Below, in pieces: positions 2,555-11,837 of a stretch of DNA of 11,837 bases. The position numbers and the translations under genes were made by a program. Numbering within the stretch: position 1 is the stretch's first letter; each line of letters starts with the position of its first letter. Location: assembly GCA_902767065.1 (NCBI GenBank), contig CACXFW010000311.1, positions 1-11,837 on the forward strand. The letters are read 5' to 3'. Below the pieces are notes generated by a model that was not told the DNA's origin, made no database searches, and worked only from the letters and a program-made list of their open reading frames with translations. This DNA is from an uncultured Lachnospiraceae bacterium. GTDB lineage: Bacteria > Bacillota > Clostridia > Lachnospirales > Lachnospiraceae.

Positions 2555-2628
2555 AAGAACTGGCCCATTCAGAAAAGAGAAAACACGAGAGTTTAAGAGA
2601 CCGCAGAAGAAGCATAGCAGGGGGATGC

Positions 2629-2717
2629 AGCCAGATACCGTTCGAAAGGACGAAGTAGTATCGATTACGGTATCGGCGTCCGAACGGATATTGCCAGAAA
2701 TAAACTGTTGTTTATAG
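2629..2717 (+). repeat. Interspersed palindromic element, copy 1 (89 bp, 13-nt internal deletion)
   Basis: It begins AGCCAGATACCGTTCGAAAG and ends ATAAACTGTTGTTTATAG. It is about 90% identical to copy 2 apart from a 13-nt gap in the stem loop, between CGAAAG/CGAAGG direct repeats. The outer stem GATACCGT (2634-2641) pairs with ACGGTATC (2667-2674). A second hairpin ATAAAC-TGTT-GTTTAT closes the 3' end. The element runs directly into the AGAGGAG ribosome site of the LacI-like gene. The reading frame that is translated in copies 2 and 3 (DYGIG...) ends here in a TGA overlapping a GTG start candidate of that gene. Confidence 0.88.
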
Positions 2718-2724
2718 AGGAGTC

Positions 2725-3630
2725 ATGGCAGTGAGAGTGAACAGTTCATCACAGCACATCGCAGATTCGCCTGAGAGCGGCACCTTGCAGGGTGAGCGCC
2801 GGATCGGCATCATATACATGGAAGAAAGCGGCCGCGGGCTGACACATCCCTTCTTCTCTCTGATCCTCGACGCGTTCAAGAAGGAAGCAGAGTCCCGGGG
2901 ATGTGAGATTACATTTCTCAACACCGGCATTCCCGGCAGCGGGATGAAATGGTCTGATTACTGCCGGCTCAGCGGGATTGACGGGGTCTGCGTGGTCTGC
3001 GGAAATTTCGATTCCCAGGATATGAAAGATCTGGCCTCCAGCGGCCTTCCCTGCGTGACGATCGATCACATGTATAAGCGCGTGTGCGCCGTGCTGTCGG
3101 ACAATGAGACCGGTGTCAGGGAGCTGGTGGAATACGCAATCTCGAAGGGGCACCGGCGTATCGCATTTATTCACGGGCACAATAACTCGATTGTAACCCG
3201 GGCCCGTATCTCACAGTTTCGCAATACGATGTCCGTCCACTCCCTTCCGGTTCCGCCGGAATATATCCAGGATGGAAAGTATGACGATATTAAGCTGACA
3301 AGAAAACTCGTTACGAACCTTCTGACCCTGCCCGAGCGCCCCACCTTTATTCTTCTGCCGGACGACATTTCCTACCTTGGCGCACAGGATGCGGCACGGG
3401 AGTGTTCCCTCAGCATTCCCGGGGATATCTCCTTCGCAGGGTATGACGGGATTCCGCTCACGCAGGCGCTTACTCCGAAGCTGACCACCATCCGTCAGGA
3501 TACCGACCAGATCGGGCGTCTGGCCGCCACGCGGATCATCGACCTGATTGATCATCCTTCCACCGCAACCCGGATGCCTGCGATCCTGCCGGTCAGGTTC
3601 ATGGAAGGCGGAACAGTCGGGACCGTCTGA
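2725..3630 (+). CDS. LacI-family ligand-binding domain protein lacking the N-terminal HTH domain
   Basis: This is a periplasmic-binding-protein-like sensor domain of LacI/GalR type, 301 residues against about 330-345 for the family. It opens with a short polar stretch, then ERRIGIIYMEE at about 24-34, which is where the ligand domain normally starts after the HTH and hinge. Later family landmarks are GIDGVCV (84-90), DNETGVRELVEYAISKGHRRIAFIHG (126-151), PDDISYLGAQDA (212-223), IPGDISFAGYDG (231-242) and LTTIRQDTDQIGRLAA (253-268). No LacI HTH is encoded upstream in any frame; that space holds repeat copy 1. AGGAG at 2718-2722 is only 2 nt from ATG 2725 but 8 nt from in-frame GTG 2731, so GTG 2731 may be the real start. 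Without the HTH it cannot bind operators in the usual way; it may be a decayed repressor or a stand-alone sensor. It is divergent from the kinase/transporter unit. Confidence 0.88.
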   Translation: MAVRVNSSSQHIADSPESGTLQGERRIGIIYMEESGRGLTHPFFSLILDAFKKEAESRGCEITFLNTGIPGSGMKWSDYCRLSGIDGVCVVCGNFDSQDMKDLASSGLPCVTIDHMYKRVCAVLSDNETGVRELVEYAISKGHRRIAFIHGHNNSIVTRARISQFRNTMSVHSLPVPPEYIQDGKYDDIKLTRKLVTNLLTLPERPTFILLPDDISYLGAQDAARECSLSIPGDISFAGYDGIPLTQALTPKLTTIRQDTDQIGRLAATRIIDLIDHPSTATRMPAILPVRFMEGGTVGTV

Positions 3631-3761
3631 GAACCCGAAGATGAATACTCATCATGAATGGCTCATTTTTCCGATTACAGCTATGATCTGATCCGAAACC
3701 GAAAGCAGATAGGGATTATTCAGAAGCAGCCAATGCAGATTGCGCTGGATTAGGAGAGATT

Positions 3762-5576
3762 ATGAGTTTCTTTGACCTGCTGACTTTGTTCGGCGGACTT
3801 GCGATGTTCCTCTACGGCATGCGCCTGATGGGGGACGGCCTGAAAGAAAGCTCTTCCGGTGCTTTGAAGACCGCAATGGAGCACGTGACCAACAACCAGT
3901 TCAAGGCATTTCTGCTTGGGCTTGGTGTCACGGCACTCATTCAGTCTTCTACAGCTACCATCGTCATTACATCGGGACTTGTCGCGGCGGGAATCCTTTC
4001 CCTCCATCAGTCACTGGGCATCATCGTCGGGGCCAATGTCGGAACGACCGTGACCGGCCAGATCATCCGTCTTCTCGATATGGATGCATCCGGCGGATCG
4101 TGGCTACAGATCTTCAAGCCCTCATCGCTGGCGCCGATTGCGCTGATTCTCGGGATCATCCTCATCATGGGGACGAACTACAAGAATTCCCGTACTTTCG
4201 GAAACATCGCGATCGGGTTTGGCATTCTCTTCTCCGGACTGCTCAGCATGACCGATGCCGTAAGCAATCTTACGCAGTCAGGAGTCTTTGAGAATCTCCT
4301 GTCAAGGCTTGACTCCAATCCCCTGCTTGGCTATGCAACCGGTGCCGGCGTTGCCTTTGTTCTGCAAAGCTCCAGCGCAACAATTGGTATTCTCCAGGCC
4401 TTTTCCGCGTCTGGGGTTCTGACCTTCAACGCGGTGTACCCGGTGATCATCGGCGTTTATCTCGGTGACTGCGTCACGACCGCAATCGTCTGCTCGATCG
4501 GTGCAAAGGCAGATTCGAAGCGCATCGGCATCATTCACATTCTGTTTAATCTGAGCAAAACGGTTCTGATCTTTGCCGTAGTCGCGATCCTTCATCAGTG
4601 CGGAGTTCTGGATTCGCTCTGGAACAAGACCGTGAACTCCGGCATCATCGCGAATACGAATACGATTTTTAACCTGGCATGCGCGGTCGCTCTGTTCCCG
4701 CTGCTTGGAACCTACGAGAAAATAAGCCGCCGTATCGTGAAGGATGAACCGGTTCCGGAGAATCCGTATAAGGAAAAGCTCGATGGTCTCAACCCTGTTT
4801 TCTTTTCGACACCGGCCCTCGCCCTGAACAGCTGTTATGATCTCCTGCTGACCCAGTTTCACGCAGCGCGCGCAAATGTCCGGGAAGCCATCACGCTCCT
4901 TGAAGAATACAATGAGAAGAAGGATGAACAGATCAATGCGGAGGAAGAAAATGTAGACCTTCTCACGGACAGCGCAAGCCGCTATATCGTGGAGCTTCTC
5001 CCGCATCTTCGTGAACAGCAGCACGTCCGCATTCTGGATCAGTATTACAGAGTTGTCTCAGAATTTGAGAGAATCGGAGATGAGGCGCCCAAAATTGCCA
5101 AAGCGGCAAGGGATCTTTCCGAAAGAGGCCTGTCCTTCTCCGAGATGGCGCAGCAGGAGCTCCGGGTCCTGTTTGAGCTGACAGATCATGTCTTCGATTA
5201 CACGGACACCACCTTCCGGACCCGGGATGTGGATGCCGCGTTTCAGATGGAGCCGCTGGAGGAGGTCGCAAATGAGCTGATCTCTACATTTAAGGTCAAT
5301 CACCTGAACCGTATGGGAAACGGGAAATGCAATCTCTTCGCCGACACGAATTTCATCAACCTGCTCTCTTCGGTCCAGCACATCGTAAATGCCTGTACCA
5401 ACATCGGAGAGGCAACCGTCATCCGGGTCAGGCCGGAGCTGGCAGCCAATGAGCACATTTACTTCGAGACCATGCGCGCCGGTGAGGATGAAACCTACAA
5501 TGAAGGCCTTCGCAAAGCACGGGAAGAATACTTCGGAAAGCTGTCTCCGGAATCGATGGAGTCAATGAACCTGTAG
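3762..5576 (+). CDS. Na/Pi cotransporter family protein with PhoU-like C-terminal domain
   Basis: This inner-membrane transporter of the sodium-dependent phosphate cotransporter family (two Na_Pi_cotrans repeats) is presumed to move phosphate or another anion with Na+. It has 604 residues, typical for the bacterial form with a PhoU-like tail. The inverted-repeat hallmarks are visible: QSSTAT at 61-66 followed by GANVGTT (90-96), and QSSSAT at 202-207 followed by GVYLGDCVTT (231-240). About eight hydrophobic segments fill residues 1-320. Residues 350-590 are soluble, helical and acidic, and resemble PhoU (for example DQYYRVVSEFERIGDEAPKIA). AGGAG lies about 6 nt before ATG 3762, preceded by a TAG at 3751. 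The gap to the LacI-like gene is 131 bp and no convincing promoter was seen there, so read-through from upstream is possible. The substrate is an inference from the family; some members act in phosphate homeostasis, not uptake. Confidence 0.95.
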   Translation: MSFFDLLTLFGGLAMFLYGMRLMGDGLKESSSGALKTAMEHVTNNQFKAFLLGLGVTALIQSSTATIVITSGLVAAGILSLHQSLGIIVGANVGTTVTGQIIRLLDMDASGGSWLQIFKPSSLAPIALILGIILIMGTNYKNSRTFGNIAIGFGILFSGLLSMTDAVSNLTQSGVFENLLSRLDSNPLLGYATGAGVAFVLQSSSATIGILQAFSASGVLTFNAVYPVIIGVYLGDCVTTAIVCSIGAKADSKRIGIIHILFNLSKTVLIFAVVAILHQCGVLDSLWNKTVNSGIIANTNTIFNLACAVALFPLLGTYEKISRRIVKDEPVPENPYKEKLDGLNPVFFSTPALALNSCYDLLLTQFHAARANVREAITLLEEYNEKKDEQINAEEENVDLLTDSASRYIVELLPHLREQQHVRILDQYYRVVSEFERIGDEAPKIAKAARDLSERGLSFSEMAQQELRVLFELTDHVFDYTDTTFRTRDVDAAFQMEPLEEVANELISTFKVNHLNRMGNGKCNLFADTNFINLLSSVQHIVNACTNIGEATVIRVRPELAANEHIYFETMRAGEDETYNEGLRKAREEYFGKLSPESMESMNL

Positions 5577-5591
5577 CGGTCAATGAAAGCA

Positions 5592-5681
5592 GCTGATGCT
5601 CTCCATCAGCCGGTCAAAGCAGCTGATGTCTCCATCAGTCAGTCAAAAACAGCTGATGCATTCTTCCGCATCAGCTGTTTT
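5592..5681. terminator. Triple tandem hairpin with strong, possibly bidirectional terminator
   Basis: Three related units follow the transporter stop. Hairpin 1 is GCTGATG/CATCAGC (5592-5610). Hairpin 2 is CTGATG/CATCAG (5623-5638). Hairpin 3 has a perfect 14-bp stem, AAAACAGCTGATGC and GCATCAGCTGTTTT (5646-5681), with an 8-nt loop. Each is preceded by GTCAA plus an A-rich stretch. Hairpin 3 has a T run on one side and an A run on the other, so it can end transcription of both the transporter (plus) and the convergent secreted-protein unit (minus). Confidence 0.85.
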
Positions 5682-5693
5682 GATTTCACAATT

Positions 5694-7007
5694 TCACATC
5701 TCCGGCTTCATTCCGGCCAGCGTCTTCAGCAGCCAGATCACTCCTCTCGCTGCCATTTCGGAGGTTCCCTTGTCCAGGCCGGTAACCTTCGAAATGATCC
5801 CGCCGACCGCTTCAGGTCCCTGGTCTCTGATATACAGACTCGTCATGGCTTCTCCGTATTCGGCAGGAGTCATCTCCTCCTTCGCGAGCAGATACGTGTA
5901 ACGGATGGATTCAAAGACACAATCCGCATTCCGCTCTACCTCTGCGCGGGACTGATTGCCAAACCAGCCGGCACGGTATGCATTTTTCACCGCGCGGCCA
6001 AAGCCTTTCCGCAGGATGCCCCATTCTTTGTCCGTGATATTGGTATTGGCGAGAACGCCCTTCAGGTACAGGAGCACGCGGGACCATTTATCAGAAAAAT
6101 CCTGGTAGCTCTCTTCCACCTTCCGGACTGTTTCGCTGACCGTGTCCTGCACGGTATCTGCCACGTCACTGACTGTATCTTGTACGGTGTCTACCGTGTC
6201 CTTAACGGCATCCGCCGTATCGCTGACCGTATCCTGAACGGCGCCTGCTGCAGCCGTGGCCTTCTCCAACGCGGCATCCACCGTGTCGCCGGCCATTCCC
6301 AACGCGGCATCCGCTGTGTCGCTGACCGTGTCCTTAACGGCATCCGCCGTATCGCTGGCCGTGTCCTTAACAGCGCCCGCTGCAGCCGTGGCCTTCTCCA
6401 ACGCGGCATTCACCGTGTCGCTGACCGTGTCCTTAACGACGCCTGCAGCCTCTGTGGCCTTCTCCAGCGCGGCATCCACCGTATCACCGACCGTCCCCTT
6501 AACGGCGCCTGCAGCCTCTGTGGCCTTCTCCTTGATGGAATCCACCACTGAGCCGCATTTTTCTTTTAAGGAGTCTGACGGATCAGAATCCTCATTCTCA
6601 TCGTCCAGGAGCAGGCCGGCGAGCAGGTTCCCCGCCTTCACGCCCAAGCTCTTCGCGTCTTGAAGAATCTTTCCGGCCATTTGGGCCAGTTCACCAGCTC
6701 TCTTCCCCAGAGCATCGAACCAGCCTCCGGAAGCTTCCTCCTCTGAAAACAACCGTTTATTCCTGACAATATCCGTTCGGATGCCGATACCGTAATCGAA
6801 ACCACTTCGTCCTTCGGACTCGTACTTTCGAACGGTATCTGGCTCCTTAGACTCATCGACTGTTTCCGCCAGCAATCCAGTGGCGGCTGCGGATGCAGGA
6901 GAATACCCTGCAGCCGGCACTTCCTGGCTCATCACAGCTGCCATCAGAAGGCAGATCATACAATACGCCAGGAATTTCTTCCCTGTTCTTTTTCTGTTCA
7001 TTTTCAT
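5694..7007 (-). CDS. Secreted protein with LEA-like 11-residue repeats and an embedded palindromic element
   Basis: A 437-residue exported protein of unknown function. Residues 1-33 form a signal peptide (basic MKMNRKRTGKK, hydrophobic core, cut likely near VPAAG). Residues 56-90 are encoded by repeat copy 2 and include GFDYGIGIRTDIVRNKRLF. Residues 95-135 are helical. Residues about 161-297 are a long run of 11-residue units of the type AVKDTVSDTAD and ALEKATAAAGA, rich in Ala, Asp, Thr, Val and Lys. These resemble LEA group 3 or apolipoprotein-like amphipathic helices. Residues 300-437 form a distinct C-terminal region (SDKWSRVLLYLKGVL, then EWGILRKGFGRAVKNAY) that I do not recognise. GGAG lies 4 nt before ATG 7007. 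It sits 44 nt after the small membrane protein and is probably co-transcribed with it. A stress, surface or envelope role is only suggested by the repeat type. Confidence 0.85.
   Translation of the reverse strand: MKMNRKRTGKKFLAYCMICLLMAAVMSQEVPAAGYSPASAAATGLLAETVDESKEPDTVRKYESEGRSGFDYGIGIRTDIVRNKRLFSEEEASGGWFDALGKRAGELAQMAGKILQDAKSLGVKAGNLLAGLLLDDENEDSDPSDSLKEKCGSVVDSIKEKATEAAGAVKGTVGDTVDAALEKATEAAGVVKDTVSDTVNAALEKATAAAGAVKDTASDTADAVKDTVSDTADAALGMAGDTVDAALEKATAAAGAVQDTVSDTADAVKDTVDTVQDTVSDVADTVQDTVSETVRKVEESYQDFSDKWSRVLLYLKGVLANTNITDKEWGILRKGFGRAVKNAYRAGWFGNQSRAEVERNADCVFESIRYTYLLAKEEMTPAEYGEAMTSLYIRDQGPEAVGGIISKVTGLDKGTSEMAARGVIWLLKTLAGMKPEM
6117..6527 (-). repeat. Coding tandem repeats (33-bp units, 11-residue periodicity)
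   Basis: Repeated blocks such as GCATCCGCCGTATCGCTGAC and GCAGCCGTGGCCTTCTCCAA on the plus strand recur through this stretch, spaced in multiples of 33 bp. Larger duplications are visible, for example around 6240-6300 and 6370-6430. Pairs such as 'gcctgcagcctctgtggcc' near 6440 and 6508 are identical. The pattern indicates recent unit duplication and likely length variation between strains. Confidence 0.85.
6743..6844 (-). repeat. Interspersed palindromic element, copy 2 (102 bp), in frame inside the secreted protein gene
   Basis: On the minus strand it starts AGCCAGATACCGTTCGAAAG and ends near GTTGTTTTCAG. The stem GATACCGT plus TCGAAA pairs with TTTCGA plus ACGGTATC, with a two-nucleotide bulge. 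The loop carries a GTCC-GAA-GGAC mini-hairpin. It is 102 bp (34 codons) with no stop in the translated frame, so it inserts about 34 residues without disrupting the gene. It lies between the signal peptide and the helical region, where extra sequence could be tolerated. Confidence 0.9.
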
Positions 7008-7051
7008 TACGCTCCGGATTCTGATCTCTCCAGGTTATTTCTGAACCAGTC

Positions 7052-7546
7052 CTACTCCCTGAGAATCTTTACGATCTCAACGACTGGTTCCATGATCTCG
7101 GCCAGGCTCGAAATGGAGTGATTCAGGCTTTCAAAGTCAACACTGTTGAAGTTATCAAGCGCCACTTTGATGGCTTCTTCATTTTCATTGATCAAAACAT
7201 CCGTATCCTTCGCCAGATCCGTCAGCTCTGACATGGAGGTTTCCGCATGTGCCACAAGCGCGTCCACGTTATCCATGGTTTCCTGCACTCTGGTAACCGT
7301 TTTCAGAAACATCGGAACCAGAAGAACAAACACAACCACCAGCACACCGAGAAGTGCAAACTCCGCGATGGCGATGGCCTTTGATACCGAGATGCCCCGC
7401 TCCTGCCGTCTGCTCATCTTCTGCAGCAGCCTGGTCTGTTCCTTGGCCTCCTTAGTATGAGCCTTATCTTCTGTCGGGATTGGCCTCTGACCGGGATGGT
7501 CTTCTATTGCTTCCATATCTGTCTCTTTCACTCCTTTCTCCTGCAC
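7052..7546 (-). CDS. Small single-pass membrane protein with coiled-coil extracytoplasmic region
   Basis: Unknown function; 164 residues from GTG 7546. A polar, charged N-terminal segment (1-54) is followed by one transmembrane helix at about 55-81 (ending VLVVVFVLLVPMFLK). After it comes a heptad-like amphipathic region (82-164), for example TVTRVQETMDNVDALVAHAE. The charge pattern (RRQER before the helix) predicts the N-terminus inside and the coiled coil outside. The start is uncertain. GTG 7546 has a weak site. In-frame GTG 7531 has AGGAG 6 nt upstream and may be correct. ATG 7516 is a third choice. It is first in a likely two-gene unit with the secreted repeat protein and has a strong promoter upstream. 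The region resembles the general architecture of DUF948-like or methyl-accepting-type membrane coiled coils, but I do not recognise a specific family. Confidence 0.75.
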   Translation of the reverse strand: MQEKGVKETDMEAIEDHPGQRPIPTEDKAHTKEAKEQTRLLQKMSRRQERGISVSKAIAIAEFALLGVLVVVFVLLVPMFLKTVTRVQETMDNVDALVAHAETSMSELTDLAKDTDVLINENEEAIKVALDNFNSVDFESLNHSISSLAEIMEPVVEIVKILRE

Positions 7547-7551
7547 TCATC

Positions 7552-7565
7552 TGTCTGATCAGACA
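7552..7565. promoter_or_regulatory. Perfect 14-bp palindrome in the leader of the membrane protein gene
   Basis: TGTCTGATCAGACA is its own reverse complement. It lies just upstream of the start candidates and downstream of the promoter. It could be a dimeric repressor operator or a stem in the mRNA near the ribosome site. No cognate regulator can be named. Confidence 0.45.
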
Positions 7566-7573
7566 ATGCCGGA

Positions 7574-7594
7574 TTCCTGTCTTCCGGACAGGAA
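7574..7594. promoter_or_regulatory. 8-bp hairpin in the 5' leader of the membrane protein gene
   Basis: TTCCTGTC and GACAGGAA form a perfect 8-bp stem around a 5-nt loop. It falls about 10-30 nt after the predicted transcription start on the minus strand, so it would be at the very 5' end of the transcript, as in mRNA-stabilising 5' stems. It has no T tract, so it is not a standard terminator. Confidence 0.5.
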
Positions 7595-7610
7595 AGACAT
7601 TTCGTTCGCG

Positions 7611-7639
7611 AGTATAATACGACTCCGTTTCATTTTCAA
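7611..7639 (-). promoter_or_regulatory. Strong SigA-type promoter for the membrane-protein/secreted-protein unit
   Basis: On the minus strand, TTGAAA (7639-7634), a 17-nt spacer and TATACT (7616-7611) match the housekeeping consensus closely. It would start transcription near 7604 and serve the genes at 7546-7052 and 7007-5694. Confidence 0.75.
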
Positions 7640-7751
7640 GAGGGACTGCCTTTGGGCTATAGCGGAAAAAATACCATGCAGCGAATGATCTGCTCATACG
7701 GAGAAGGAAAACGGATCCCTCTTTATATTGTCAAAGCAGATCCTGGTGGCA

Positions 7752-7770
7752 GGAAGCCGGGCACGCTTCC
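7752..7770 (-). terminator. Weak hairpin just after the MATE gene
   Basis: GGAAGC and GCTTCC (6 bp, 7-nt loop) lie just 3' of the MATE stop codon. There is no T run, so this is at best a factor-dependent or weak terminator; it may only be chance pairing. Confidence 0.25.
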
Positions 7771-7774
7771 CGGA

Positions 7775-9139
7775 TCAGATTCCCGGCGGCCATCCCTCCA
7801 TCTTCCTGATCCTGAAATAGATGAGGTAAGAAACGATCACTGTAAAAAAGTCCGCAATCGCCTGCGTCCAGACGATCCCCATCATTCCGAACAGAGAATT
7901 CAGCAAAAACAGCAGCGGGATATTGAACACCAGCTGTCGAATGGCAGGCAGGAAAAAAGATTCCCTGCCCCGCCCGAGCGCCTGGGTAAAATGCACCATA
8001 CTGAAACACAGAAACATCAGCGGGGTCGCAAAGCATCTCGCCCGCAGGAACTGCGTACCGAAACGTACCGTATCCGCGTCCCGGATAAATGCCTGTATGA
8101 TATCCGGAGCAAACACATAGTACAGGAGCACACTGAAGATCCCGATGACCAGGCCGACCCCTCTGCCGAAACGAAAGACCGCATCCATGCGTTCCCGGTT
8201 TCCGGAGGAGTAACTGTAAGCCAGAAGAGGCACCATGCCCAGGCAGATTCCGATGCCGATATTCAGAGGCAGACGTTCCACCTTCAGTACAATTCCGATC
8301 GCGGCAAGCTCGATGTCTCCATGGCCGGCGGACAGGCGGTTGATGACGATATTGCAAAGATCAAACAGAAGCAAAGACACGGCGGCAGGGATTCCCACGC
8401 TGAAGACAGAAGCAAGAGAACGGCGGGACAGATATGTGCCGCCCATCCGGATACGAAGAATCGTCTGCCTGCCGGCCCTTATGTATGTTACAAGAAAATA
8501 TACCAGCGCAGCCGTGTTGCTGAGCATGGTCGCGATCGCAGCCCCCAAAACCTGCTGCCCGTCCGGAAGAATCACAAACATGAAGAGCGGATCCAGCGCG
8601 ATGTTCAGGACGCCCCCCATGCTGAGTCCGAAGGATGCCCTGGAAGACAGACCGATGCTGCGGAGCATGGAGGAAAGCACATTGCTCAGGATCACAGGCG
8701 TCCCGCCGATGACGACCACAAAGAGCATATACTGCTTCGCGTATCCGATCACATTGTCGCTTGCACCCAGAAAGCGCAGAAATGGCGTCATTCCCACATA
8801 GCAGACCGCCGAATACACGACAGCGCATGCAAGCGCCATCCAGATACACGCCGCGGACACCCTGGAGGCTTCTTCCTCCTCCCCTCTTCCGATCAGGCGG
8901 GCGATCAGGGTGCCGCCTCCGGCCCCGAAAACATTCGAAATGACAACGGTCAGCATGAGGGCAGGCAAAACGAGAGAACAGGAAGCAACCATGAATGGGT
9001 TGTCTGTTCGCCCCACAAACCAGGTGTCTGCCAGATTATAGATCAGGAGAATCAGCTGGCTGACGACAGCCGGAAGCGCCATGACCGCCAATGCGCGGGG
9101 AACGCTGTACTTCTCAAAAATCTCTTTCCTGTCCTGCAT
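7775..9139 (-). CDS. MATE family efflux transporter
   Basis: This is a multidrug and toxic compound extrusion protein, an inner-membrane antiporter that exports cationic drugs or metabolites using an Na+ or H+ gradient. It has 454 residues, normal for the family. About 12 hydrophobic helices fall in two MatE halves (roughly 13-175 and 235-400). Family features seen include PAVVSQLILLIYNLADTWFV (24-43), the GAGGGTLIARLIGRGEEEEA stretch after helix 2, and SMGGVLNIALDPLFMF, characteristic of the NorM/DinF-like subgroup of Clostridia. The start at 9139 has AAGG 7 nt upstream. It lies 92 nt after the C11 peptidase gene on the same strand and could be read through from it; no convincing own promoter was seen. 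The exported compound cannot be told from sequence. Confidence 0.95.
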   Translation of the reverse strand: MQDRKEIFEKYSVPRALAVMALPAVVSQLILLIYNLADTWFVGRTDNPFMVASCSLVLPALMLTVVISNVFGAGGGTLIARLIGRGEEEEASRVSAACIWMALACAVVYSAVCYVGMTPFLRFLGASDNVIGYAKQYMLFVVVIGGTPVILSNVLSSMLRSIGLSSRASFGLSMGGVLNIALDPLFMFVILPDGQQVLGAAIATMLSNTAALVYFLVTYIRAGRQTILRIRMGGTYLSRRSLASVFSVGIPAAVSLLLFDLCNIVINRLSAGHGDIELAAIGIVLKVERLPLNIGIGICLGMVPLLAYSYSSGNRERMDAVFRFGRGVGLVIGIFSVLLYYVFAPDIIQAFIRDADTVRFGTQFLRARCFATPLMFLCFSMVHFTQALGRGRESFFLPAIRQLVFNIPLLFLLNSLFGMMGIVWTQAIADFFTVIVSYLIYFRIRKMEGWPPGI

Positions 9140-9231
9140 TTAGATGCCTTATTCTGATCCTTTTTCCGAACACTTTTTCCGGATCCTTCTCCCCGTCCTT
9201 GTTTTGTGAGAATTCATGGGGTGCTGAACAG

Positions 9232-11358
9232 TTACTCAAAAGAAACCGATTCTCCATCCCAGTACACATTAAAATAGTCAGTGTAGTGGGCATTGTTGAA
9301 CACATCCCTGGCTATGAAGCGGATCATGTATTCCCCTTCCGGAAGCTTTTCGTTCTCAATCACGGAATCTTTCGTAATCAGTGTGTCCATTCTCCTGATA
9401 TAGTCCGATATCCTGTTATACTTTCTACTGTACACTGCATCGCACAGAGTGATATAATCCCCTTCAATCTCGCTGATCGGAACTACATTTCTCCCGGCAA
9501 GGCCGCTATGGGCGTCAAATCCGTCCCACAGCCCCAACAGCTCATACGAACTATTCTTTTCATCCGTGTCGATGCCCATCTCTTCCGTTTCCATGCCTTC
9601 TTCCATACCGGCATCAGTTTCCTCTTCCAGGTCCGTGTCTTCCGCCTGCATACCGGCTTCAGATTCTCCTTCCAGGCCTGCCTCTTCCTCCGGGTTTGCT
9701 TCCTGATAATAAGACAGAATCCGCAGTTCCATATCTTCATCCTGAATCTTGACCGGAGAGTGATACAGAACGTAGGATTCGGTATCATCTGCGATAGACA
9801 TGCAAAGAGGTTTTCCGTCCAGCGTCGGCCAGGTTCCGTCAAATCCCAGCTTAAACCATTCCGTCCCCTGCTCTTCATCTGTCTCATAAGTCAGATTCCC
9901 GCTCTCTCCCAAAGTATAAGTAACTCCGTAATCTGCATCTTCGAAATACAGTGCGTAAGACAGAGTCATAACGGAATCAAATCCTGAGCTGAACGTCAGA
10001 TACGCCTTGGTACGGTCTTCGGAAAAAGCGATCTCCGGAACGACAATAAAGCCGCTTCGATCCAGCTCCGGATGTCTGTCTGCTTTTTCATAAACCCATT
10101 CCGGCGCAACCCAGTTCACATTGATGCTGTCCAGGAACGAAAGATGCTCCGGATTCTTACTTGTCCTGGCAAAATGATCCAGGGTTTCATCGCTATCATT
10201 GAGCGAATAATAGACAGAAAGGCCATGCGAATACATATGATTGGCAGAACGGAGATTGTATACAACCGCGTCTTCAACTGCATCCTGCAGGGCATGGGTT
10301 ACCTCCTTTGAGATTCCCCCCTTCTCCGCCCTCCGGCTGAGATCGAAAAGATCCACCATGGATTTCACTAAATAATTTTCTGTATAGTAGGTTTCCCTGG
10401 CATAGTTATAAAAATCTTCCGAATCCTGTACCAGTCCGGACACATCATGAATAAATGCATTGAATGCTTCCGCGACCGCATCTATCTTTGAAAGGTCAAT
10501 CAGGGACATGGTAAAATATGTGGTAGTGCTCTTCTGATCCGTTTCCATATAATACTGCTGGGAGTAATCACAGATCCGCTTCCCCAGCTGTTCGGCAGAG
10601 CATTCCGGACGGTCATACAGATACTGCACCCAGCCTTTGTAGTTGGTTCCGTCCCCGGCCATGACCTCCTCGGAGGCTGCCAGATAGTCCGCGTAGGGGG
10701 CAAGTGCCTGCCCCATTTCCAGGGAAGCCATCAGGCACGCATCCGTCATCACAAGATCAAAATGAGTTCCTCCCTCACGAAGCGCATCTTCAATAGCATA
10801 CAACGGCATGATCGTATCCCCGTAATTCTCATCGCAGATCATTCCCGCATTGCTCCCGCCGCCATGATCCCAGAGAATCAGCATGTTTTTCTTCGCGCTG
10901 TAGTTCTCCGCTGCCCAGCGGATAAAGTCGGAAAGTGTCTGCCCATTGGACATACAGGATTCTTCTGCTTCATCCACCAGAACATATCCATCCTGCCCGT
11001 AATACCAGCGCTGCAGTCTGTCATTCGCAATCTCGAATCCAAGCTTCTCTTCCGGATCCCAGTTCTTTGTCCCGCCTGTCTCCACCAGAAGATTCACTCC
11101 GTCATCGGGCAGTGTCTCGGCAATCGCGCTCAGGTTCAGCGTCGCTGCGCCTGCATCCGATTCAAGGTCTGTACCACACAGATACAGCAGGACATTCCAT
11201 TCACATTCCTCACCCTGCTCAGCTTCGGTCAGAGACTGGAATTCTGCCGTTTCACCGGTCTTTGCCTCCCTGGCCTGTTCGGTTTCCCCGGCGGGGGCAA
11301 CACCACACAGCCCCATCGTCAGCGACAACGAAAGCAGCACCGTAATCATTCTTTTCAT
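9232..11358 (-). CDS. Secreted clostripain-related cysteine peptidase (family C11)
   Basis: A 708-residue extracellular endopeptidase of clan CD. Clostripain relatives cut after basic residues, though this specificity is only inferred. Signal peptide at 1-24 (MKRMITVLLSLSLTMGLCG, cut likely near APAG). The C11 core opens with NVLLYLCGTDLESDAGAA (55-72). The catalytic His is H165 in ILWDHGGGS, the nucleophile is C208 in LVMTDACLMASLE, and AASEEVMAGDG follows at 227-236. Residues 553-600 are a Glu/Asp-rich insertion made of near-duplicate units. The remaining 601-708 is an Ig-like or beta-rich C-terminal region. ATG 11358 is chosen because GGAG lies 6 nt upstream and the signal peptide starts there; an in-frame ATG at 11460 would add 34 residues encoded by repeat-derived DNA. 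It is probably autoprocessed as in the family. Substrate and role are unknown. Confidence 0.93.
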   Translation of the reverse strand: MKRMITVLLSLSLTMGLCGVAPAGETEQAREAKTGETAEFQSLTEAEQGEECEWNVLLYLCGTDLESDAGAATLNLSAIAETLPDDGVNLLVETGGTKNWDPEEKLGFEIANDRLQRWYYGQDGYVLVDEAEESCMSNGQTLSDFIRWAAENYSAKKNMLILWDHGGGSNAGMICDENYGDTIMPLYAIEDALREGGTHFDLVMTDACLMASLEMGQALAPYADYLAASEEVMAGDGTNYKGWVQYLYDRPECSAEQLGKRICDYSQQYYMETDQKSTTTYFTMSLIDLSKIDAVAEAFNAFIHDVSGLVQDSEDFYNYARETYYTENYLVKSMVDLFDLSRRAEKGGISKEVTHALQDAVEDAVVYNLRSANHMYSHGLSVYYSLNDSDETLDHFARTSKNPEHLSFLDSINVNWVAPEWVYEKADRHPELDRSGFIVVPEIAFSEDRTKAYLTFSSGFDSVMTLSYALYFEDADYGVTYTLGESGNLTYETDEEQGTEWFKLGFDGTWPTLDGKPLCMSIADDTESYVLYHSPVKIQDEDMELRILSYYQEANPEEEAGLEGESEAGMQAEDTDLEEETDAGMEEGMETEEMGIDTDEKNSSYELLGLWDGFDAHSGLAGRNVVPISEIEGDYITLCDAVYSRKYNRISDYIRRMDTLITKDSVIENEKLPEGEYMIRFIARDVFNNAHYTDYFNVYWDGESVSFE
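9604..9693 (-). repeat. 45-bp tandem duplication in the acidic segment of the peptidase
   Basis: The plus-strand block CATACCGGC(A/T)TCAG occurs at 9604 and 9649, followed in both by TTCCAGG and a final CTTCC. The 45-bp period encodes 15 residues, giving units of the type LEGESEAGM and LEEETDAGM. It keeps the frame and lies in the Glu-rich linker. Confidence 0.75.
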
Positions 11359-11410
11359 AAACAGCTCCTTTTCAAGTACGTTCCGATTGTTTTCTGAATC
11401 AACATCACAT

Positions 11411-11454
11411 ACAGACACCGCTTTCCACGCCTGCGCAGGGCGGAAACTGTCTGT
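11411..11454. other. Long interrupted hairpin in the upstream region of the peptidase gene
   Basis: On the plus strand, ACAGACA (11411-11417) pairs with TGTCTGT (11448-11454), TTTCC (11422-11426) with GGAAA (11442-11446), and GCC (11429-11431) with GGC (11439-11441), around TGCGCAG. Small bulges separate the blocks. It directly follows palindromic element copy 3 and may be the 3' module of a longer form of that element. There is no T run, so it is not a plain terminator. It also encodes the last residues of the PIN fusion ORF (PPCAGVESGVCM). Confidence 0.6.
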
Positions 11455-11460
11455 TCTCAT

Positions 11461-11564
11461 CTATAAACCTATGTTTATATCTGACTCTGTCCGGTCTGTT
11501 GCCGATGCCGTAATCGAAAGTGCTTCGTCCCTCAAGACTCGCACTTTCAAACGGTAATCTGGCT
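11461..11564 (-). repeat. Interspersed palindromic element, copy 3 (104 bp)
   Basis: On the minus strand it begins AGCCAGATTACCGTTTGAAA and ends with a perfect hairpin TATAAAC-ATAG-GTTTATA. The inner stem GAAAGTGC/GCACTTTC is 8 bp and perfect, and CCGT/ACGG closes the outside. The loop retains GTCT...GGAC pairing. It is the most diverged copy and carries one extra T near the 5' end and one extra base in the loop. It is flanked by a PIN-domain fragment upstream and hairpin 11411-11454 downstream. Confidence 0.85.
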
Positions 11565-11837
11565 ACCAATAAAATATCAGTTTTACAGGAGGGAAACAAG
11601 AGGCTCAGGGAACTCGTCATCCGCAATCCTTCCACCACTCTGTAATGCTTATCGTTTGCCGTTATCAGTGTTTCGTTTTCTTCAATACAAGTACTGGCAA
11701 TCAAAGCATCCGCCATTTCCATAGAATGACTTAATGAGTACATTTCAACATAATCCGAAGCACGCAGGGAGATACTTTCAGACAACGGAATGATTTCAAC
11801 GCTCATCTCCCCGACTGAGTTGAATTACATTCATCGC

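Follow-up and report, generated by a model that had tools for sequence, protein, structure and literature searches.

A high-copy structured repeat of Lachnospiraceae located directly 3' of GGAG: a probable mobile element family carrying its own GAGGAG

The locus and its three repeat copies

The DNA analysed here (the window) is contig C311, 11,837 nucleotides long, of the draft genome of an uncultured Lachnospiraceae bacterium, which comprises 2,395,544 bases in 516 contigs and is 70% complete. It contains three copies of a short palindromic repeat. The repeat probably represents a mobile element family, non-autonomous and strand-specific, which is found in Lachnospiraceae of rumen and gut, uses GGAG as its target and replaces it. 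Fetched loci, compared genomes and contigs are designated below by L, G and C numbers, respectively. The copies, which belong to two subtypes (A and B), and the genes next to them are as follows:

2627..2722, plus strand: copy 1, type A tail with a short loop; left GCAG at 2627-2630, hairpin 1 at about 2630-2677, tail hairpin ATAAAC-N4-GTTTAT, right end GAGGAG at 2717-2722
2725..3630, plus strand: gene downstream of copy 1, 301 codons; Pfam Peripla_BP_3 and Peripla_BP_1 (LacI-type ligand-binding domain)
5694..7007, minus strand: gene carrying copy 2 in frame, 437 codons; signal-peptide-like N-terminus (by eye) and 33-nt tandem repeats
6738..6846, minus strand: copy 2, type A; left GGAG at 6846-6843, right end GAGGAG at 6743-6738
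9232..11460, minus strand: open reading frame (ORF) downstream of copy 3; clostripain-family protein (PF03415)
11456..11566, minus strand: copy 3, type B; left GTAG at 11566-11563, right end GATGAG at 11461-11456

The presence of three copies, one on the plus and two on the minus strand as the original prediction had it, is confirmed by sequence comparison: copies 1 and 2 form inverted matches of 77 nt (90%) and 25 nt (96%), and copies 1 and 3 have 75 nt in common at 76%. The boundaries first proposed (89-104 bp) located the copies correctly and left out the conserved GAGGAG or GATGAG at the 3' end, so that the unit is slightly longer. Copies 1 and 3 indeed have the ATAAAC-N4-GTTTAT hairpin, of which copy 2 retains a degraded form, and no gene lies within the roughly 109-bp unit, which agrees with the non-autonomous character suggested for it. 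What had gone unnoticed is that copy 2 is in frame within a gene, that copy 1 stands beside a start codon, that copy 3 belongs to a second subtype, and that insertion occurs at Shine-Dalgarno sequences with an apparently self-supplied replacement. Compared with 200 dinucleotide shuffles per copy, copies 1 to 3 fold with z scores of -3.1, -4.5 and -5.6, with 0, 0 and 1 shuffles folding equally well.

Each copy stands in a different relation to its gene. The right end of copy 1 lies 2 nt upstream of the first possible start codon of gene 2725..3630, for which alternative GTG starts are present at 2731 and 2737. Copy 2 is translated in frame as EPDTVRKYESEGRSGFDYGIGIRTDIVRNKRLFSEE; the same gene contains imperfect 33-nt tandem repeats (window 6139-6588), in which database variants vary in length. 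The first ATG of the clostripain-family ORF falls within the GATGAG of copy 3, and since a signal-peptide-like start (MKRMITVLLS, by eye) lies about 100 nt further down, copy 3 is more likely part of the 5' leader than placed at the site of ribosome binding.

Structure, copy number and distribution of the repeat family

The common unit consists, in this order, of a variable hairpin (GCC...GGC), the string ATCCG, a spacer, a tail hairpin that usually reads TCAG(R)ATAAAC-N4-GTTTAT, and the terminal GAGGAG, and is about 70-110 bp long, or longer when extra hairpins are present. In type B, another string replaces ATCCG. In copy 2 the outer stem is GCC.GATACCGT/ACGGTATCGGC with a two-base UU bulge, followed further in by UCGAAA/UUUCGA and an inner GUCC/GGAC stem, and the tail forms two small hairpins. 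When this structure is laid over 70 aligned sequences, 85.6% of 2330 cells are paired, against 31-45% when the partners are slid by 1-3 columns, controls that favour the structure already for the reason that it was derived from one row of the alignment. The covariation score is 0.116 against 0.028-0.050 for the slid versions, and none of 500 shuffles reaches the observed values. Several pairs often fail (columns 8-71, 10-69, 13-67, 16-65 and 29-50), and the outer part is therefore not kept in all copies. RNAalifold predicted no pairs on the 70-sequence alignment, perhaps because the stems and loops of the subfamilies occupy different columns.

The earlier suggestion that structure is kept while sequence changes is borne out not only by this pairing but also by stems of wholly different sequence that still pair, for example AATTACCGCTTGCGGTAATGGC (G094), AGATTTTGTTC... 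(G008, G009) and AAGTACTGTCC... (G176, G209). Most of these loci keep ATCCG and a tail like TCAGATATAAAC-N4-GTTTATAGAGGAG, and the TTTTGTTC group has another tail, yet also ends in GGAGGAG. Longer copies (L035, L038, L151) carry an extra strong hairpin at one fixed internal place after GGCATC, which by analogy suggests modular growth as in BOX elements.

The high copy number that had been predicted was found in the source genome. BLAST gave 42 matches (40 of 106 candidates scored), a core pattern with up to 3 mismatches occurred at 85 sites against none for the reversed control pattern, and 90 unique full or partial copies, interrupted ones being counted twice, were gathered from the fetched loci. 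A covariance model built from 70 sequences (R1, threshold E<=0.01), the approach originally proposed together with boundary mapping and a search of relatives, returned at least 107 matches (150 of 826 candidates scored). Several copies are located at contig ends, and such repeats may help to explain the fragmentation of these drafts.

Outside the source genome the element is patchily distributed. R1 had 31 matches in four of 18 same-genus genomes (G008 13, G016 11, G009 6, G002 1) and none in the remaining 14, and it matched in six of 299 genomes of a family sample, the source genome being one of them and no more than 12 candidates per genome being scored. The tail pattern, allowing two mismatches, was found in four of 397 family genomes and in two of 391 genomes drawn from the class, again counting the source genome, the second of the latter belonging to the same family. 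In exact form this pattern occurred over 84,980 species in 68 stretches from 32 genomes (counted by record prefix), named Lachnospiraceae, Butyrivibrio, Eubacterium sp. or, once, uncultured Clostridia; the exact type A pattern had no match in the same species contig collection, in which the common tail pattern did match. Copies thus also occur in other genera of Lachnospiraceae, and from these counts the family looks old and patchy within one bacterial family, with a burst in the species of the window. No match to the element was found in the viral contigs, phages and plasmids searched.

Insertion directly 3' of GGAG, before and within genes

Among 70 type A left ends, the five positions before the first CC are A in 54, G in 50, G in 48, A in 66 and G in 66 copies, conservation thus weakening leftwards. 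At the right edge (67 copies), information amounts to 1.2 bits at the last G of GAGGAG, drops to 0.4 and is near zero within five bases. The type B copies (11, nine of them with a right end) are flanked on the left by RTAG-like sequences and terminate in GATGAG. In the 67 copies with both ends, GGAG is found on the left in 30 and on the right in 42, and the same tetranucleotide at both ends in 23; other left tetranucleotides include TGAG, GTAG (5 of 67), GCAG and ATAG. None of the 37 both-ended copies with a left tetranucleotide other than GGAG repeats it at the right, and therefore the right GGAG belongs to the element and the target is not duplicated. Nor is there a terminal inverted repeat, the best 12-base match between the ends having a median of 6 and a maximum of 8 in 67 copies, compared with 6 and 9 for shuffled left ends. 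Five tandem pairs overlap by exactly 4 nt (C18, C81 and C186 of the source genome, G008:C4 and G016:C166), as is expected if the right end of one copy serves as target for another. Insertion is thus directly 3' of GGAG, or more loosely of NNAG, without target duplication.

Element-free versions of these sites are found in relatives. Nine conserved-looking genes were chosen from 52 listed downstream ORFs and sought with one chained query in the 18 same-genus genomes; their NCBIfam names are ClpX, cysteine-tRNA ligase, alanine-tRNA ligase, Fmt, QueA, TrpA, Rpe (cut by the contig end, its score below the cut-off), isocitrate dehydrogenase and YbaB. R1 detected no element in the 37 upstream regions compared (from G002, G006, G013, G014, G015 and G018), one of which, L204, has no match to the gene start. 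Upstream of alaS in G002 (L172), a genome with one model match, the sequence tgttgtttatagaagaaagg resembles a worn right end. In all four relatives compared, clpX is preceded by a stop codon, GGGG and four bases before ATG, and in the source genome by a stop codon, AAAG, the element and four bases before ATG, so that the eight-base distance is unchanged once the element is removed. For queA, the source genome reads TTAAGGAG, element, TGAC-ATG and G014 reads TTAGGAG-GGAA-ATG; G013 differs in having AAGGAG 22 bases before the start. Before cysS, fmt, trpA, rpe and icd the right end of the element is 6-10 bases from the start (the left end being worn at rpe), and most of the compared relatives have a purine-rich site at a similar distance. 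By this reading, the element would have inserted just 3' of the Shine-Dalgarno sequence and replaced it at seven of the nine genes, and not at the other two.

Placement before gene starts was measured by a strict test, in which the flanks are joined and a start codon is required 3-14 nt past the site, with an ORF of at least 80 codons and no in-frame start more than 25 codons upstream. This test is passed by 28 of 64 copies and by 117 of 2336 other GGAG sites (5.0%, p 7e-20), as well as by 55 of 643 AGGAG sites and 95 of 2527 GCAG sites in the same loci, the GCAG figure showing the background of the test itself. A looser test gave 36 of 64 copies against 500 of 2432 GGAG sites, with 4 of 61 when read antisense from the left end; as 20.6% of ordinary GGAG sites pass it, the strict test was relied upon. 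In the named genomes, 56 of 69 exact tail sites have a start 0-14 nt downstream by the loose criterion. A script sorted these 69 sites into 42 with a left hairpin, three with only an ATCCG-like string, 21 with the tail alone and three near a contig end, a count that overstates the tail-only class because clear left hairpins (L269, L281) are missed. At L234, L236, L239, L247, L262, L265, L268 and L293, the tail TCAGATATAAAC-N4-GTTTATAGAGGAG precedes gene starts with no recognisable left hairpin. Candidate readings of tail-only sites are worn copies kept for their ribosome-binding site and an independent leader module.

A second group of copies is read as protein. Six or seven copies are in frame, copy 2 of the window included, the others lying in a UvrD/PcrA-type helicase (L005), in a protein kinase after the kinase domain (L010), in a glycosyl hydrolase 3 and a 5'-nucleotidase-like protein, both after a signal-peptide-like start (L107 and L003, respectively), at the end of a histidine kinase (L028) and, less surely, at L004. 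They encode the peptide EPD.VRKYESE.RS.FDYG.GIRTD.VRNKR.FIEE and add 35 codons. All seven use a single frame, with 108 bases from GAG to GAGGAG, and are in phase, against 16 of 60 other copies in phase and nine of 60 open in that frame, a comparison that is partly circular, as the in-gene set was picked by its open frame. The helicase has 827 residues and the piece falls in a linker of variable length; eight aligned relatives of 747-778 residues, listed among 7900 found, are without it. The copy 2 protein has eight matches at E<=1e-10, one being that of the window itself, and the piece is present in all of the other seven. One variant of the copy 2 gene, P0128, diverges outward of the left element boundary and may be an assembly chimera. 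L004 and L016 may represent N-terminally extended leaders rather than insertions in genes.

Taken as a mechanism, these observations suggest that the element would insert directly 3' of GGAG, or more loosely of NNAG, leaving the target unduplicated. Because GGAG is the core of the Shine-Dalgarno sequence, many surviving insertions would fall between that sequence and the start codon; and because the GAGGAG of the element would occupy the position of the old site, at about equal distance from the start codon, translation could continue. Such a replacement would explain why copies are tolerated before clpX or cysS. The GAGGAG probably works as a ribosome-binding site. Within genes or at their edge, only in-phase, stop-free copies could be read through, adding 35 codons.

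How the preference for Shine-Dalgarno sequences arises is a separate matter from the identity of the repeat as a mobile element. It is tentatively proposed that the family belongs to a class that recognises the Shine-Dalgarno sequence itself and returns a working one at its 3' end, with the enzyme supplied in trans, in which case insertion would leave translation nearly unaffected, even upstream of essential genes. It is likewise quite possible that an ordinary element with a loose NNAG target is seen mostly at Shine-Dalgarno sequences through survivorship, most other sites being in genes. The varied left tetranucleotides, fewer than half of which are GGAG, and the preference of type B for RTAG favour such an origin, while A and G are favoured further out on the left flank of type A, giving RAGGAG-like sites, and GAGGAG forms the right end in unrelated subfamilies. 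Part of the bias must also come from selection against insertions elsewhere.

Dense bacterial genomes leave a selfish element few harmless places, and a ribosome-binding site used as a landing pad and replaced on arrival would be a way out. To our knowledge, no described family uses and replaces the ribosome-binding site in this way. In one species, and not in the compared relatives, core genes such as clpX, cysS, fmt and queA have gained structured leaders through these insertions, which makes the element a natural experiment on the rewiring of 5' leaders.

Mobilisation and relation to known repeats

Several observations weigh against a mobile element that replaces the site it enters. At alaS and ybaB the native Shine-Dalgarno sequence is kept downstream of the element and has not been taken over, copy 3 of the window is not at a ribosome-binding site, and the strict start-codon test is not passed by 36 of 64 copies. 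The site bias may come partly from survival, with selection removing insertions in genes, and the element-free comparison covers nine housekeeping genes and none of the window's own copies. Pairs with change on both sides number 17 of 34, which is above the shuffles (mean 8.6) and not above all slid controls (8-20). Identity to the query is 82-94% among the near-full copies listed, with no direct sign of recent movement. Finally, Y1_Tnp (PF01797) had no match in the source genome (70% complete), is absent from three of the four element-bearing same-genus relatives and present in element-free genomes, and none of 15 Y1 loci of relatives has the element in the flanks examined.

These last findings bear on the alternative that the repeat is a classical miniature element of the REP/RAYT type (repetitive extragenic palindrome and its associated tyrosine transposase) or derived from IS200/IS605, with a Y1 HUH transposase reading the left tetranucleotide, which on balance is unlikely. 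A left NNAG directly before an imperfect palindrome, as passages of PMC3733652 and PMC8266576 describe for GTAG REPs, together with strand specificity, the lack of target duplication and a hairpin near the right end, is what such an element would show. Moreover, the left GGA could be bound in a guide-like manner by the ATCC next to the stem, and TCC goes with a left GGAG in 27 of 47 rows and ACA with a right TGAG in six of six. This association is a lead that follows the two subtypes and has mixed rows, and the element-free site lengths at clpX and queA assign the left tag to the target, not to the element. As a candidate mobiliser, a Y1 transposase was sought in the source genome (70% complete) and 16 others, with no link to the element.

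That the repeat is instead a cis-regulatory RNA leader, riboswitch- or attenuator-like, spread by duplication and retained for translation control, is improbable. A paired structure on the sense strand beside start codons, a hairpin directly before GAGGAG and the tail-only sites among the 69 (21, an overcount), as if the tail alone were useful, would suit it; the genes downstream, from clpX and cysS to icd and ybaB, share no common pathway, the compared relatives lack these leaders at the corresponding genes, and copies in frame in coding genes, head-to-tail tandems and the lack of an Rfam family do not suit it. More improbable still is movement through an RNA intermediate (reverse splicing or reverse transcription) or by site-specific recombination, in which GGAG would be the shared core for a serine or IS110-type recombinase. 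Direct GGAG at both ends without duplication fits a shared core, and copies near starts are sense-oriented and form good RNA pairing; by eye, no part of the unit could act as a long guide pairing with AGGAG.

The mobile element preferred here is presumably still able to move, and its transposition may depend on a single-strand enzyme supplied in trans, of the IS200/IS605-like or rolling-circle type. The original comparison with REPs, miniature inverted-repeat transposable elements (MITEs) and Rickettsia palindromic elements (RPEs) holds in style only; target-site duplication and terminal inverted repeats above the shuffled level are absent. The element acts like a miniature mobile element and is not filed under either MITE or REP. 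DDE-type MITEs are likewise short, non-autonomous and abundant (here about 109 bp and 107 model matches), and the element is kept apart from them because it has neither duplication nor terminal inverted repeats. It is kept apart from REPs because of its size, its place and the absence of a detected RAYT. REPs are 20-40 bp long and located mainly downstream of coding regions; according to passages of PMC3733652 and PMC8266576, GTAG-tagged REPs are short, abundant palindromes after an NNAG-like tag, in some cases in genes. By contrast, the present element is about 70-110 bp long, often lies just upstream of starts, has two hairpins and is found in a genome with no Y1 gene detected; it does have an NNAG, which is GTAG in 5 and GGAG in 30 of 67 copies and which element-free sites assign to the target. 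With IS200/IS605 derivatives, whose cleavage sites are chosen by guide tetranucleotides beside palindromes as described in part of PMC8266576, it shares insertion 3' of a short target without duplication and subterminal hairpins.

RPEs are near 100 bp in size, and we know of no mobiliser for them. As palindromic repeats they occur within numerous protein genes that are unrelated to each other (passages of PMC3733652 and titles cited in PMC10969869). The element resembles them in being in frame in unrelated genes and differs in its hosts and in often preceding start codons at GGAG with a replacement site, a separation made by description only. The BOX, RUP and SPRITE repeats of pneumococcus are described in part of PMC3049150 as non-autonomous, structured and probably parasitic, BOX being modular, with 125 BOX and 110 RUP in one genome; terminal inverted repeats and target duplications characterise BOX and RUP, and neither was found in the element. 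ERIC/RU repeats of enterobacteria are 103-168 bp long, mobile and carry open frames, some fused to genes (passages of PMC2759123). They differ from the element in their terminal inverted repeats and their duplication of TA, and those passages mention no tie to the Shine-Dalgarno sequence. No description of the element was found in the titles, abstracts and passages covered, which included few subscription journals and no bioRxiv preprints. Rfam 15 (4227 models) had no match in the window at E<=1 or in 10 related loci at E<=0.1. The idea of a possibly undescribed family is thus upheld as regards Rfam. What is new relative to known repeats is the insertion site and the apparently self-supplied replacement ribosome-binding site.

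Other repeats were encountered in and around the copies. At L048 (contig C90), a second miniature element of about 80 bp with the ends TTACTATTCAC / GTGAATAGTAA lies within a copy, flanked by ATCCGAGCG and ATCCGAACG, which resemble a 9-base target duplication. Copies at L089, L043 and L077, and also at L072 and L080, are interrupted by another repeat starting with GTAACTATTCAGCACC or GTAATTATTCAGCACC, which at L089 ends in GGTGCTGAATAATTAC and has TAAACTGT on both sides. In the window itself, an inverted repeat with 27-nt arms that are 89% complementary (TGTTACAGGTCACACCCC...) occupies 2429-2515; it is possibly a further repeat family, and a related piece, GGGGTGTGCCCTGTAACA, was found inside the copy at L087.

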